Source: Bacteroides ovatus
Lineage (GTDB): Bacteria > Bacteroidota > Bacteroidia > Bacteroidales > Bacteroidaceae
Reading direction: 5' to 3'
Assembly (NCBI RefSeq): GCF_001314995.1
Contig: NZ_CP012938.1
Span: 5,208,001-5,272,000, forward strand
DNA: 64,000 nucleotides
Below the pieces are notes generated by a model. That model had not been told where the DNA came from, ran no database searches, and saw nothing but the letters and a program-made list of their open reading frames with translations. The translations under genes were made by a program, and so were the position numbers. The first letter of the stretch is position 1, and every line of letters starts with the position of its first letter. Shown here in pieces: positions 38,388 through 42,718 of this stretch.

Positions 38388-39161
38388 TTATTTAATCTTT
38401 TCCCGGATCTTCGTCAGATACTTTTTCATACCTTCCGCATCCTTGTTTTCGATGATTTCGAGAAGGTTTTTCAACTCTGTCCGGATATTAGTCACTTGTC
38501 CCGGAGTGCGTGGGTTGAACAGTATTTCCTGAAGCAGGTAATCATCTTCGCTTAGCAGCCCTTTGGCGATTGCCATGTGCTTTTTGAACGTAGTTCCCGG
38601 GGCTTCCTGATGTTTCATTACGGCAGCAAATACGAACGTCGATACGAACGGAATAGAAAGCGAGTAGGCTACTGTTTCGTCGTGCTCATCAAATGTATAT
38701 TCGAAGATGTTCAACCGTAATGTCTGGTAGAGGTCTTTGAAGAATATTTTTCCCAGGTGGTCGCCTTCACTGATAATGATGGCATTTTCACTGCTTAGAT
38801 TGCTAAGACTTGCGAAAGTCGGGCCAAACATAGGGTGACTGGAAACGTAGCGGAAACCACTTTCTTCGTAGAACTTCTTCAATCCTGTTTTTACAGAGGC
38901 AATGTCACTAATGATACAGTCTTTCGGTAATACAGGCAGTATTTTGCGAAAGGCATCCAACGTGTACTTCACTGTAACAGCATTAATAACCAGTTCCGGT
39001 TCAAATTCCTTAATCTCCTCCAATGTAGTGAAACGATACGTGTTATAGACGAAACGCAACTGGTGCGGGTTGACGTCGAACACGGCCGTCTCGTGTTGAA
39101 AGCTCAAAATATCAGTAAAGAAGGAGCCCATTTTACCAGCTCCAAGGATTAATATTCTCAT
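38388..39161 (-). CDS. tyrA: Prephenate dehydrogenase
   Basis: TyrA oxidatively decarboxylates prephenate to 4-hydroxyphenylpyruvate for tyrosine synthesis. The 257-residue protein has the Rossmann motif GAGKMG (residues 7-12), Asp29 in AVFDVNP that suits NAD, and the conserved SDIASVKTGLKKF (about 85-97) and SSHPMFGPTFASL (about 107-119). It lacks a fused chorismate mutase, which here is fused to the DAHP synthase instead. It is the last gene of the pheA operon. A 155-base spacer with a nested inverted repeat separates it from the DAHP synthase gene. Confidence 0.93.
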   Translation of the reverse strand: MRILILGAGKMGSFFTDILSFQHETAVFDVNPHQLRFVYNTYRFTTLEEIKEFEPELVINAVTVKYTLDAFRKILPVLPKDCIISDIASVKTGLKKFYEESGFRYVSSHPMFGPTFASLSNLSSENAIIISEGDHLGKIFFKDLYQTLRLNIFEYTFDEHDETVAYSLSIPFVSTFVFAAVMKHQEAPGTTFKKHMAIAKGLLSEDDYLLQEILFNPRTPGQVTNIRTELKNLLEIIENKDAEGMKKYLTKIREKIK

Positions 39162-39316: not shown

Positions 39317-40378
39317 CTACTTATTAATAATTTCCATCTGTTGACGAACTGATTCTTCGTGGATGGCTTCGAAAATCTTCTTCATAAACTCGCTGTCCAT
39401 ACCGCATTGTTCGCCCTGCGCGCCACGTTTTTCCAGAATCTCATTGTAACGTCCGGCTTGAAGAACTGTGATTCCGTGCTCCTTTTTGTAAGTACCGATT
39501 TCACGGGCCACACGCATTCTTTTTGCTAATTCCTGAATGATATTGTCGTCACATTCATCAATCTGTTTACGGAGTTGTGCCAGACTTTCGGTAGACTGTG
39601 TTTCCGTACGGATTACCAACAGATTGAGGATATAGTCGAGTACGTCCGGAGTAACTTGTTGAGAAGCATCGCTCCATGCGCAATCCGGGTTGCAGTGGCT
39701 TTCTACAATCAGACCGTCGAAATTCAAGTCCATAGCCTGTTGGCAAAGCGGTGCAACCAACTCACGTTTTCCACCGATATGGCTCGGATCACAGAAAATC
39801 GGAAGATTAGGGATGCGGCGGCGCAGTTCGATAGGAATATGCCATTGGGGAAGATTCCGATAGATCTTTTTGTCATAACTGCTGAAACCTCGGTGGATAG
39901 CACCCAGACGCTTCAAACCAGCGTTGTTGATACGTTCCAGTGCTCCGATCCATAATTCGAGATCCGGGTTCACCGGGTTCTTAACCAATACAGGGATATC
40001 AACCCCTTTCAGTGCGTCAGCGATTTCCTGTACGGCGAAAGGATTGGCAGTGGTGCGTGCACCTACCCAAAGAATATCGATTCCCGCTTTCAGACATTCG
40101 TAAACGTGTTTGGCTGTTGCTACCTCTGTAGAAACATACATTCCAGTTTCTTTCTTCACCTCTTTCAACCAGGCAAGACCTTCTACACCGATACCTTCGA
40201 AACCTCCCGGTTTGGTACGCGGCTTCCAGATTCCGGCACGATATATTTTTTGTCCTTTAGCAGCCAGTTGTTTGGCTGTATCCATTACTTGTTCTTCTGT
40301 TTCTGCGCTACACGGGCCGGCAATGACAATCGGTCTTTTAGCTTCAACGCCCGGTAATAAAATTGATTCGAGTTCCAT
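39317..40378 (-). CDS. Bifunctional DAHP synthase / chorismate mutase
   Basis: The 353-residue protein joins two activities. An N-terminal type I-beta DAHP synthase (about 1-255) is marked by VIAGPCSAETEEQ (about 18-30), WKPRTKPGGFEG (about 52-63), LVKNPVNPD and FCDPSHIGGKR (about 198-208). An AroQ-type chorismate mutase follows (about 265-350, LAQLRKQIDECDDNIIQELA with MRVAREIGTYKK). It makes DAHP from PEP and erythrose 4-phosphate and converts chorismate to prephenate. This fusion is usual in Bacteroidota and lets the mutase regulate the synthase. It is the third gene of the operon. Confidence 0.95.
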   Translation of the reverse strand: MELESILLPGVEAKRPIVIAGPCSAETEEQVMDTAKQLAAKGQKIYRAGIWKPRTKPGGFEGIGVEGLAWLKEVKKETGMYVSTEVATAKHVYECLKAGIDILWVGARTTANPFAVQEIADALKGVDIPVLVKNPVNPDLELWIGALERINNAGLKRLGAIHRGFSSYDKKIYRNLPQWHIPIELRRRIPNLPIFCDPSHIGGKRELVAPLCQQAMDLNFDGLIVESHCNPDCAWSDASQQVTPDVLDYILNLLVIRTETQSTESLAQLRKQIDECDDNIIQELAKRMRVAREIGTYKKEHGITVLQAGRYNEILEKRGAQGEQCGMDSEFMKKIFEAIHEESVRQQMEIINK

Positions 40379-40468: not shown

Positions 40469-41647
40469 TTAGATTCTTTTAATTCTTTCCAGAGCTTCCG
40501 CCAGCTTATTGTCCTTGCAACAAAGTGAGATACGAATATACCTTGCTCCGTTGCTGCCGAAGATAAATCCCGGAGTGATAAACACTCTTGCTTCATGCAG
40601 CACCTTTTCTGTCAGTTCCTCTACATCTTTGCAGGAAGCGGGAATCTTTCCCCAAAGGAACATTCCTACTTGTTTTTCGTCGTAGGTGCATCCCAATGTT
40701 TTCATGATCTCACCGGCGAGGTGACGACGGTTGCGGTAGTTCTCGTTATTGCCTTCATACCAGTCCGCTTCGGCTTCAAGAGCAGTTGCTGCAGCCAGTT
40801 GCATAGCACGGAACATACCACTGTCGATATTACTTTTCACTTTCAGTATCCATTGTACGAATTCCGCGTTTGACGCCAGCATGCCGATACGCCAGCCGGG
40901 CATATTGTGGCTCTTGCTCATAGAATTAAACTCGATGCAACAGTCTTTGGCTCCCGGTACACTTAGGATACTGATAGGCTTATCGTTCAGGATAAAGCTG
41001 TACGGATTATCATTCACAATTACGATATTCTTACGACGGGCAAAGTCAACGAGACGTTCATAGATTTCCGGAGTTGCATTGGCTCCCGTCGGCATGTTGG
41101 GATAGTTGGTCCACATCAGTTTTACGCGACTAAGATCCATTTTTTCCAGTGCCTCGAAGTCAGGCATCCAGCCATCTTCTTCTTTCAGGTCGTAGTTGAT
41201 AACTTCCGCTCCGAGTATTTTACTCAAAGAAGTATAGGTAGGGTATCCCGGATTCGGGACTAGCACCTGCTCACCCGGATTGACGAATGCCAGCGTAACA
41301 TGGAGAATTCCTTCTTTAGAGCCGATTAAAGGCTGTATCTCCGTATTCGGATTCAGTTCCACTCCATACCAGCGTTGATACCAGGCAGCGAAGCCTTTGC
41401 GCAGTTCAGGGATACCTACATACGGTTGGTAACCGTGTCCGTTGGGATCATGAGCATTGTTGCACAATGTTTCGATGGTTTCCCTTGAGGGAGGCATATC
41501 GGGGCTTCCGATACCGAGGCTGATAACATCCTTTCCCTCTGCATTCATCTGTGCTACCTCTTTTAGCTTCTTTGAGAAGTAGTATTCGCTAACACTTGCC
41601 AATCTGTCGGCAGGAGCGATTTTATACGTTTGACTTTCCTTCTGCAT
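40469..41647 (-). CDS. Class I/II aminotransferase, probable aromatic
   Basis: The 392-residue PLP-dependent enzyme shows the fold-type I pattern GIGSPDMPPS (about 46-55), YPTYTSLSKILGAEVI, NYPNMPTGA (about 186) and NDNPYSFI (about 216). The Schiff-base lysine lies in SMSKSHNMPGWRIG (about 246-259). Located between pheA and the DAHP synthase, it most likely transaminates phenylpyruvate and/or 4-hydroxyphenylpyruvate. LL-diaminopimelate aminotransferase-like relatives look similar, so the substrate is inferred from context. Its start overlaps the pheA 3' end by 26 bases, implying coupling. Confidence 0.88.
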   Translation of the reverse strand: MQKESQTYKIAPADRLASVSEYYFSKKLKEVAQMNAEGKDVISLGIGSPDMPPSRETIETLCNNAHDPNGHGYQPYVGIPELRKGFAAWYQRWYGVELNPNTEIQPLIGSKEGILHVTLAFVNPGEQVLVPNPGYPTYTSLSKILGAEVINYDLKEEDGWMPDFEALEKMDLSRVKLMWTNYPNMPTGANATPEIYERLVDFARRKNIVIVNDNPYSFILNDKPISILSVPGAKDCCIEFNSMSKSHNMPGWRIGMLASNAEFVQWILKVKSNIDSGMFRAMQLAAATALEAEADWYEGNNENYRNRRHLAGEIMKTLGCTYDEKQVGMFLWGKIPASCKDVEELTEKVLHEARVFITPGFIFGSNGARYIRISLCCKDNKLAEALERIKRI

Positions 41648-42470
41648 ATTCGCCTAATAATTTAAGTTCTTTGGTTAATGGAGTGATTGCAGCAATAGAC
41701 TGCTTGTATCTTAGATAATCGTTGAAAGCTACATCTACGTAAAACTGGTATTCCCATTCCCGTCCGATGATAGGCAACGATTGAATTTTTGTCAGATTGA
41801 TATTATAGAACGATAGAATGGATAAAACCTGTGACAGGCTGCCTTCCGTATGTGGAAGAGTGAATACGATACTTGCCTTGTTGGTTGCATTGGCATGATG
41901 TTGACGGAGTTCGTCTACTTGCCAGGGATCGGCAACAACCAGAAAACGGGTGAAGTTGTGCTTGTTTGTTTCAATACCTTCCTGAAGGACTTTCATACCG
42001 TAACGTTCAGCTGCTGCTTTGGAGCAGATGGCAGCGTGTCCTTTCAGATTTTCATTCTTGATGATTTCTGCGCTGCGGGCCGTATCTTCACCTTCCACCA
42101 CTTTCAACTGCGGATGTTGATTCAGAAATTCGCGACACTGCATCAGGGCGATAGGGTGGGAGTTGACTTCTGTCAGATCTTCCCAGTTCTCATCGGGGAG
42201 ACAGACAAAACTGTGCGAGATGCGCAGTTTGTATTCACCGATAATCTGTGTGCCGCTTTGTCTCAACAATTCATTGTTGTGCAACAAACTTCCCGCAATC
42301 GTATTCTCGATGGCTAGCATTCCGATAACCTGGCTGTCTTTCCGTATCGAAGTAAACACATCTTCGAAGTTGGCACAACAGATTAACTCTATTTCTTCTC
42401 CCTCGAAGTACTTGTGTGCGGCGATATCATGATATGAGCCGAGTGTTCCTTGAATTGCTATCTTTTTCAT
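41622..42470 (-). CDS. pheA: Prephenate dehydratase
   Basis: The enzyme converts prephenate to phenylpyruvate. The 282-residue protein has GTLGSYHDIAA (about 8-18), the substrate-site AIENTIAGSLLHNNELL (about 53-69) and the catalytic NFTRFLVV (about 167-174). A C-terminal ACT domain follows (about 190-275, PHTEGSLSQVLSILSFYNIN). The ACT ESRP motif, which binds phenylalanine in many homologues, reads QSLP here (LTKIQSLPII). It heads the operon pheA, aminotransferase, DAHP synthase-mutase, tyrA. It is preceded by a leader-peptide attenuator (42489-42718), so expression should respond to charged tRNA-Phe and tRNA-Tyr. Confidence 0.95.
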   Translation of the reverse strand: MKKIAIQGTLGSYHDIAAHKYFEGEEIELICCANFEDVFTSIRKDSQVIGMLAIENTIAGSLLHNNELLRQSGTQIIGEYKLRISHSFVCLPDENWEDLTEVNSHPIALMQCREFLNQHPQLKVVEGEDTARSAEIIKNENLKGHAAICSKAAAERYGMKVLQEGIETNKHNFTRFLVVADPWQVDELRQHHANATNKASIVFTLPHTEGSLSQVLSILSFYNINLTKIQSLPIIGREWEYQFYVDVAFNDYLRYKQSIAAITPLTKELKLLGEYAEGKSNV

Positions 42471-42488
42471 TGTTCTAAATATATTATA

Positions 42489-42522
42489 TAAAAAAATCCC
42501 GCGTCCATATTGGAGCGGGATT
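42489..42522 (-). terminator. Attenuator terminator upstream of pheA
   Basis: AATCCCGC (42522-42515, minus strand) pairs with GCGGGATT (42502-42495), with an inner CC/GG pair, followed by eight T on the minus strand. It lies between the promoter and pheA, only 18 bases before the start codon, so it must be conditionally bypassed. Confidence 0.9.
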
Positions 42523-42589
42523 CATATGATTGATTTCTCTATTCAGTCCTTAAGCATCACTGTCACTTGATACATACAAACTCCCGCTC
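42513..42589 (-). promoter_or_regulatory. Antiterminator of the pheA attenuator
   Basis: RNA GAGCGGGA-G-UUUGUAUG (42589-42573) can pair with CAUAUGAAUCCCGCUC (42528-42513). This gives 16 pairs, two of them G-U, with one bulged G at 42581. The downstream strand includes the 5' arm of the terminator, so the two structures exclude each other. The upstream strand lies within the last third of the leader ORF. Confidence 0.8.
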
Positions 42590-42649
42590 TACTTTGTTGC
42601 TAAAGTAAAAGTAAAAAAAGAAGTAATATGCATAAGTAAATGATTTCAT
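42563..42649 (-). CDS. Phe/Tyr-rich leader peptide of the pheA operon
   Basis: This short ORF has 28 codons from ATG (42649-42647) to TGA (42565-42563). Residues 1-20 read MKSFTYAYYFFFYFYFSNKV, with six Phe and five Tyr among positions 4-16. A further Phe is at 24. Such composition is the hallmark of leader peptides that sense charged tRNA. The promoter is 40 bases upstream. The Phe/Tyr run lies at 42602-42640, upstream of the antiterminator strand 42573-42589. A ribosome stalled there leaves that strand free, while one reaching the stop codon covers it. The ORF is too short for usual gene calling. Confidence 0.88.
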   Translation of the reverse strand: MKSFTYAYYFFFYFYFSNKVEREFVCIK

Positions 42650-42688
42650 TCGAATCTATCTTTTTTGCTTTGGTTTTTAATTCTGGGG

Positions 42689-42718
42689 CAAAAGTAATAA
42701 TTTTCTGTTAGATGCAAA
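42689..42718 (-). promoter_or_regulatory. Promoter of the pheA leader and operon
   Basis: TTTG (42718-42715) and TACTTTTG (42696-42689) on the minus strand are 18 bases apart, one short of the usual 19. Expected initiation near 42683 gives a leader of about 195 bases up to the terminator end. Confidence 0.7.

Follow-up and report, generated by a model that had tools for sequence, protein, structure and literature searches.

Among the closest described systems is the pheL-pheA leader of Escherichia coli (Rfam RF01859, Phe_leader), in which strand 2 lies a few nucleotides past the last Phe codon of a Phe-rich leader ORF, alternative 2:3 and 3:4 helices can form, and a terminator precedes pheA. 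All of these features are found again at the locus described here. In Flavobacterium psychrophilum, the regions upstream of amino-acid operons reportedly give strong clues to attenuation by leader peptides, and the available part of that source describes structured 5′ elements at pheA and hisG that have no Rfam match and are shared with other genera of Flavobacteriaceae (PMC9723704). It was also reported that B. thetaiotaomicron contains short ORFs reminiscent of leader peptides, the example in the accessible text being another gene (PMC7366714), and a survey of leader genes, as far as its text was available, covers Bacteroidetes (PMC4833913).

The DNA analysed here, referred to as the window, is a stretch of 64,000 nucleotides from Bacteroides ovatus (NZ_CP012938.1, positions 5,208,001 to 5,272,000). 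From 42720 to 42470 on its minus strand it carries, in order, a promoter, a 28-codon ORF, a spacer of about 40 nt, a GC-rich hairpin followed by seven U, and pheA, the first gene of an aromatic operon (Table 1). The match of pheA to PRK11898 (194.5 bits) lies below the curated cut-off of 219, and the encoded protein is 99% identical to PheA of Bacteroides xylanisolvens and B. finegoldii. A sequence-only reading had placed a 28-codon ORF between a promoter and pheA and had counted eleven Phe or Tyr codons among codons 4-16; the ORF is indeed there, and its translation confirms the count.

Table 1. Positions, in the window, of the candidate attenuator and of the operon downstream of it
Feature	Position	Strand	Basis or description
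Bacteroides-type promoter	42689..42718	minus	TTTG (42718-42715), N18, TACTTTTG (42696-42689); read from sequence
Leader peptide ORF	42563..42649	minus	28 codons, translation MKSFTYAYYFFFYFYFSNKVEREFVCIK*; no Shine-Dalgarno-like motif upstream
Sensor codons 4-16 (strand 1)	42602..42640	minus	6 Phe and 5 Tyr codons
1:2 hairpin	42556..42644	minus	sensor codons paired with strand 2 and the nucleotides beyond it; minimum-energy fold
Strand 2, antiterminator 5′ strand	42574..42589	minus	GAGCGGGA(G)UUUGUAU; inside leader codons 21-26; purine-rich
Antiterminator 3′ strand	42513..42527	minus	AUAUGAAUCCCGCUC; overlaps terminator 5′ arm (strand 3)
Intrinsic terminator, strands 3 and 4	42490..42521	minus	AUCCCGCUCC / GGA-C-GCGGGAU, 7 U; directly before pheA
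pheA, prephenate dehydratase	41622..42470	minus	first controlled gene; NCBIfam PRK11898, E 2e-57
Aminotransferase of the operon	40469..41647	minus	family search
DAHP synthase/chorismate mutase	39317..40378	minus	DAHP synthase and chorismate mutase families, one per half
tyrA, prephenate dehydrogenase	38388..39161	minus	best family E 2.7e-17, below curated cut-off

Strand 1 is formed by the pyrimidine-rich Phe/Tyr codons and strand 4 by the 3′ arm of the terminator. Strand 2 is able to pair with the 5′ arm of the terminator, and the leader therefore has all four strands of a classical attenuator. As this class of attenuator requires, the sequence holds a predicted terminator together with a predicted, mutually exclusive antiterminator that uses the terminator 5′ arm. 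The folding energy of the 198-nt leader is 4 standard deviations lower than that of its dinucleotide shuffles, none of 200 reaching it; the fold contains both 1:2 and 3:4, and according to it the 1:2 hairpin is expected to form in an untranslated leader. The 1:2 duplex is better than 95% of shuffles at 48 of 53 loci of the genus and at 19 of 50 modules of the order (samples described below), and the weakness of this hairpin outside the genus speaks against the attenuator reading. A stretch across the leader stop, AAGTGACAGTGATGCTTAAG (window 42568-42549), is highly conserved among 77 aligned relatives, and part of it prolongs the 1:2 stem in the fold of the window.

When the nascent RNA was folded from the ribosome to the end of arm 3, the antiterminator probability was 0.94-0.95 for an A site at codons 2-16, 0.53-0.95 at codon 17, 0 to 0.70 at codon 18, and 0 from codon 19, so that in this model a stalled ribosome would leave strand 2 free and one at the end of the leader would cover it; with no ribosome the probability was still 0.30, not 0. 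Equilibrium folding of the whole leader with the ribosome placed at each codon showed no switch (terminator probability 0.97-1.00 everywhere), a result that, like the value of 0.30, counts against the attenuator reading. The terminator is thus favoured at equilibrium for all ribosome positions, and the switch must therefore be kinetic, set by the order of folding.

In the proposed mechanism, RNA polymerase would start near 42682, a start that we infer from the promoter, and a ribosome would begin the leader. When Phe and Tyr are plentiful, the ribosome would pass the aromatic codons and cover strand 2, the 3:4 terminator would form, and transcription would stop before pheA. When charged Phe- or Tyr-tRNA is short, the ribosome would stall within codons 4-16 and leave strand 2 free to pair with newly made strand 3; the terminator would come too late, and pheA, the aminotransferase gene, the DAHP synthase/chorismate mutase gene and tyrA would be transcribed. 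If the leader were not translated at all, 1:2 would pair and 3:4 would terminate. Leader translation, stalling, termination and read-through are predicted events in the cell. That the element is a classical ribosome-mediated transcription attenuator sensing charged tRNA-Phe and tRNA-Tyr is very probable, in view of the observed ORF, of alternative helices that are conserved, covary and keep their spacing, and of a codon content that matches the genes of the operon. The earlier interpretation of the ORF as a Phe/Tyr attenuator leader is thereby supported by conservation, covariation and codon match, and from these we infer its sensing role.

Within the genus, 60 genomes were sampled, of which 56 had pheA, and a script assigned leader, terminator and antiterminator at 53 of the 56 loci. 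At all 53 no more than 10 of 200 shuffles paired as well as the native antiterminator, and at 48 none did. The misses are a contig that ends 103 nt upstream (L010), a matching leader with a GTG start (L070) and a locus with a leader whose hairpin tail failed the U-run filter (L065). A TAnnTTTG box within 110 nt upstream, with TTG 15-24 nt beyond it, accompanies all 53 genus leaders scanned; the box alone occurs in 8.5% of shuffled upstream regions. Shine-Dalgarno motifs are known to be rare in Bacteroidota, and the leader starts agree with this: similar 4-mers precede 2 of 53 leaders in the genus and 2 of 59 in the order (4.4% and 6.5% of shuffles, respectively), the region upstream of the starts being A-rich.

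In a second set of 80 named loci, the species of which largely overlap with the genus sample, the module is present in 75. Three of the other five have no upstream sequence (L167, L192, and L223), and two, both from uncultured Bacteroides MAGs, are damaged: the leader start is gone in L180 and the 5′ arm of the terminator in L219, which could be assembly errors or real losses. The 80 loci minus the three at contig edges gave an alignment of 77 (76 distinct sequences), in which 98.4% of the cells of the terminator helix are paired, 4 pairs having changed on both sides, as are 95.3% of those of the antiterminator helix, where 2 pairs show double changes. Covariation of the antiterminator within the genus is modest (score matched by 25 of 500 shuffles). 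One relative, L178, has a compensatory change in all three strands (GAGTGGGA, TCCCACTC, and GTGGGA), and in L236 a 1-nt insertion just past the aromatic run alters the remaining peptide and keeps the pairing.

The sequence-only reading had expected the ORF, its Phe/Tyr run and its spacing to the terminator to be conserved while the rest varies. Across the genus and the order, what is kept while other parts change is the ORF, its aromatic run and the spacing between this run and the antiterminator strand; the terminator itself lies at a varying distance. Cases that would count against that reading, such as relatives with a broken or missing aromatic leader, were looked for and do exist, but are few in the genus (L180 and L219), with several further lineages leaderless.

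It could be argued that a T-rich ORF arose by accident between promoter and terminator, its Phe/Tyr codons being what T/A-rich pyrimidine tracts encode, and that the terminator does no more than end a transcript from upstream or keep pheA expression constitutively low. Phe/Tyr codons are indeed T-rich, the same tract serves as hairpin strand 1, and an excess of third-position variation, looked for in codons 2-16 within the genus, was absent (variable sites 7, 11, and 11), as such an accident would have it. The gaps in the aromatic run of the 77 aligned relatives, however, are 3 or 6 nt long (L190, L231, L221, and L232; L180, L204, L206, L208, L226, and others begin inside the run owing to the fixed window of the alignment). 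These gaps were used instead of the run lengths of the distinct-run comparison in the genus, which are multiples of three by construction and hence not evidence. Across the 36 distinct 48-nt runs of the genus the last four aromatic codons, Y-F-Y-F, are invariant. Taken with the module counts, spacing and codon content given below, the accidental origin appears extremely improbable.

Beyond the genus, 148 genomes of the order were sampled; pheA was found in 63, and removal of two belonging to the genus left 61 loci, from which a truncated gene (L102) and a locus without upstream sequence (L049) were omitted. Under strict criteria the whole module was found in 43 of the 59 upstream regions versus 0 of 295 dinucleotide shuffles, which again argues against an accident. 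Two of the 16 loci that failed have leaders with GTG starts (L055 and L104), and seven have an aromatic leader and a terminator below the strict antiterminator threshold (L045, L053, L098, L101, L103, L105, and L108), for one of which (L053) 6 of 200 shuffles were as good in an earlier pairing test. Two further misses are weak candidates (L117 and L091), and one candidate lies more than 450 nt upstream, beyond the stretch used (L107); inspection of the upstream regions of L039, L043, L047, and L116 revealed no leader. In a class-level sample of 149 genomes, 41 matched the family used and 37 loci were new; with slightly looser criteria the module was present in 25 of these and in none of the other 12. 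These loci probably include flavobacterial relatives of the kind described, in the part available, in PMC9723704.

No leader was seen upstream of several operon-type loci (L043, L294, L295, L298-L300, L309, L311, and L314). In addition, pheA occurs with neither partner genes downstream nor a recognisable leader in L399-L403, L413-L416, L293, and L321. The attenuator is absent, lost or replaced in these latter lineages. The loci that failed, 16 of 59 in the order and 12 of 37 in the class, count against the attenuator reading.

The counts in the order also bear on translation-level control, in which the leader would act on initiation at pheA, by reinitiation or by sequestering of the start, rather than on termination. 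The terminator does lie near the pheA start (42490 versus 42470), and the available text of PMC4833913 proposes reinitiation for gene-proximal leaders, Bacteroidetes included. Yet the leader stop is 92 nt from pheA and not at the 11-14 bp peak that the same text gives for Bacteroidetes (PMC4833913), and a U-rich tail was demanded of the 3:4 hairpins in those 43 of 59 loci. Control at the level of translation is therefore highly improbable.

For the attenuator reading, covariation and spacing across the order are informative. The covarying pairs were picked by a program in modules that had been chosen for pairing, and a swap test is therefore the fairer control: the native arm ranked in the best 5% for 30 of 50 order modules and in the best 20% for 44, and pairing of the native strand 2 with its arm was on average 6.3 kcal/mol better than pairing with the arms of other loci. 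Positions of arm 3 that lie 3-5 nt past the anchor, a conserved C run, show all four bases, with matching partners in both strands, and the triplets of strand 2, arm 3 and arm 4 across modules include C-G-C, G-C-G, U-A-U, and A-U-A. Matching changes in strands 2 and 4 thus keep one arm complementary to two partners.

In 68 of 75 named loci, 11 nt separate the end of the last aromatic codon from the start of strand 2. In the order this gap is 7-15 nt in 44 of 50 modules versus 25% of shuffles, a figure that becomes 39% if the gap is limited to the 20 nt of the module cut-off; without that cut-off, 52 of 60 rows of the module search fall in this range. With the usual ribosome footprint, a ribosome holding the last aromatic codon in its A site would have its edge just before strand 2. 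Such spacing near 11 nt argues against the T-rich accident. It also bears on the proposal that the terminator is used by an RNA sensing a protein or a small molecule (a T-box, a riboswitch or the target of a binding protein), with the ORF secondary. A terminator/antiterminator pair alone would fit that proposal too, but the antiterminator strand is part of the ORF and keeps a fixed spacing to the sensor codons, Rfam families all stay below their gathering scores throughout the window, and the nine sub-threshold Rfam matches in the region have E values of 0.4 or worse, five of them to leader-peptide families (one of these five on the other strand). The chance that such an RNA is at work is close to nil. 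T-boxes and known riboswitches were rejected, with no Rfam match at gathering score in the whole window.

With regard to codon content, at seven loci of the order a search of the 4.8 to 6.8 kb downstream of pheA found neither an aminotransferase nor a DAHP synthase nor tyrA. Four of these stand-alone loci have leaders (L037, FFTHFFFFF; L040, FRFFFFFAFFF; L089, YFDFVFGFLFCF; and L101, FFFFFF, the last of which fails the antiterminator threshold). At most one Tyr occurs in the run of all four, compared with 1 of 47 operon modules, and that exception, L056, qualifies by the 13-residue window only, its full run containing three Tyr. Fisher's exact p for this difference is 2e-5 with L101 and 2e-4 without it, values that serve as a guide only because the modules are related by descent.

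Further genomes were searched in the families of L101, L040, and L037, with stand-alone status judged on 1.5 kb downstream. The family of L101 provided eight more stand-alone loci with Tyr-free Phe clusters (L405-L412), five of which pass the antiterminator test, with no more than 5 of 100 shuffles as good, and four in which a search upstream found no leader (L413-L416, the last of which matches PheA only distantly). The family of L040 added one locus with a Phe cluster (L398) and five with no leader (L399-L403). The other 16 loci in the family of L037, which come from 15 genomes (L382 and L088 being one locus), all keep the operon arrangement and all have mixed Phe/Tyr runs. The stand-alone leaders thus number 13 from four families, all with Phe clusters, 12 of them Tyr-free and one (L089) with a single Tyr; nine of the 13 pass the antiterminator test. 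A lone Tyr stands outside the cluster in five, upstream of it in L407, L410, and L411 and downstream in L040 and L398. The 25 class modules all have at least one partner gene downstream, and 24 of them carry at least two Tyr in the run. The remaining one, L326 (G305, with a DAHP synthase downstream), departs from the codon rule in having two candidate leaders with only one Tyr each.

The suggestion made from the sequence, that the leader carries the two codon types because its operon supplies Phe as well as Tyr, is supported by the Phe clusters at stand-alone pheA. The same tracking of gene content by Phe clusters and mixed runs argues against the accidental ORF. Split operons, in which the aminotransferase, DAHP synthase and tyrA genes have mixed Tyr/Phe ORFs of their own, were observed at L275 (G150), L278 (G084), L279 (G190), L280 (G159), L281 (G074), and L283 (G126), with two such ORFs in series in G150. 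The idea of Tyr-only leaders before split-off tyrA operons found no support, the short ORFs there, which were read as ORFs only, being mixed.

Some relatives carry two modules in series before one pheA operon (L034, L035, L087, L092, L100, L110, and L115), as do L031, judged by eye, and L303 and L318 of the class set. Each tandem module has its own aromatic leader and terminator. L112 was rejected as a tandem, both entries being the same leader.

Leaders of other amino-acid operons were also observed. On contig C1 of genome G000, a leader (MKYTATHHHHHFPNE) with a terminator precedes the hisG match at 128589 by about 180 nt (L330), and its antiterminator pairing beats all 200 shuffles. A His-rich leader and a terminator occur near hisG at five of eight loci, where 0, 4, 9, 11, and 11 of 200 shuffles are as good. 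On the same contig, a leader (MRTMLVNTYWWWHPLQLRQS) with a strong terminator precedes the trpE match at 1455581 by about 1.48 kb (L355), a distance that leaves room for another gene first; this leader failed the simple antiterminator test. Pairs or triplets of Trp and strong terminators are common to the Trp leaders. A pairing was obtained at eight Trp loci, and all eight failed the same test, with 22 to 166 of 200 shuffles equalling the native pairing. Before ilvB (10 loci), aspartokinase/thrA-like (11) and lysC-like (8) genes, no convincing attenuator was found, apart from one far candidate (L369), the 1.5 kb flank searched being one that may fall short of the start of the ilvB operon. A class-wide set of attenuators may comprise the Phe/Tyr leaders described here and, encoded by the same genome, leaders for His and perhaps for Trp.

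On balance, we consider it rather probable that Bacteroidia hold old, class-wide attenuators with leaders free of Shine-Dalgarno motifs, the sensor codons of which have been re-tuned on gene gain or loss and which some lineages have stacked. If this is true, transcription and translation would be closely coupled in Bacteroidia; classical attenuation requires a ribosome close behind RNA polymerase. Attenuation without Shine-Dalgarno motifs, kept in much of Bacteroidia, would make this coupling directly testable in the phylum, and amino-acid regulation in a major gut genus would gain a concrete, testable mechanism. The Phe clusters at stand-alone pheA amount to a natural experiment in which the sensor fits the genes controlled.

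When compared with known systems, the Bacteroides leader has 28 residues, both Phe and Tyr codons, a strand 2 inside the ORF and no Shine-Dalgarno motif, whereas E. coli pheL has 15 residues, aromatic codons that are all Phe and a strand 2 past the stop codon. As a positive control, the same script finds the module at E. coli pheL (NC_000913.3; gap 7, 2 of 500 shuffles as good). A scan of the leader strand with RF01859 gave 16.6 bits (E 2.4), below the gathering cut-off of 55. In the thr and ilv operons of enterobacteria, a single leader carries codons for more than one end product; the Bacteroides leader resembles these in serving plural end products, which here are Phe and Tyr. The tandem attenuators of Salmonella mgtCBR, as given in the accessible part of PMC3641672, likewise have two short ORFs per leader region, as in some relatives, but control no amino-acid biosynthesis operon, and the window has a single module. 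The pheA element of F. psychrophilum belongs to the same phylum and the same genes, but to a sister lineage, and section 19 of PMC9723704, within the part available, contains neither a leader sequence nor a codon test. In a search that left subscription journals mostly aside, and in the accessible parts of the sources, no description was found of this element in Bacteroides or of how it is distributed, nor of the codon natural experiment or the tandem copies; a prior listing of the leader ORF among the short ORFs of B. thetaiotaomicron is possible (PMC7366714, seen through its available text). The sequence-only reading had considered a complete attenuator in a Bacteroides pheA operon to be of interest because classic ones are best described in Proteobacteria; for the phylum, such attenuation is already in print (PMC9723704, available part). 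Relative to these systems, attenuation itself is of a known kind, and the codon natural experiment, the tandem copies and the leader starts without Shine-Dalgarno motifs are new.
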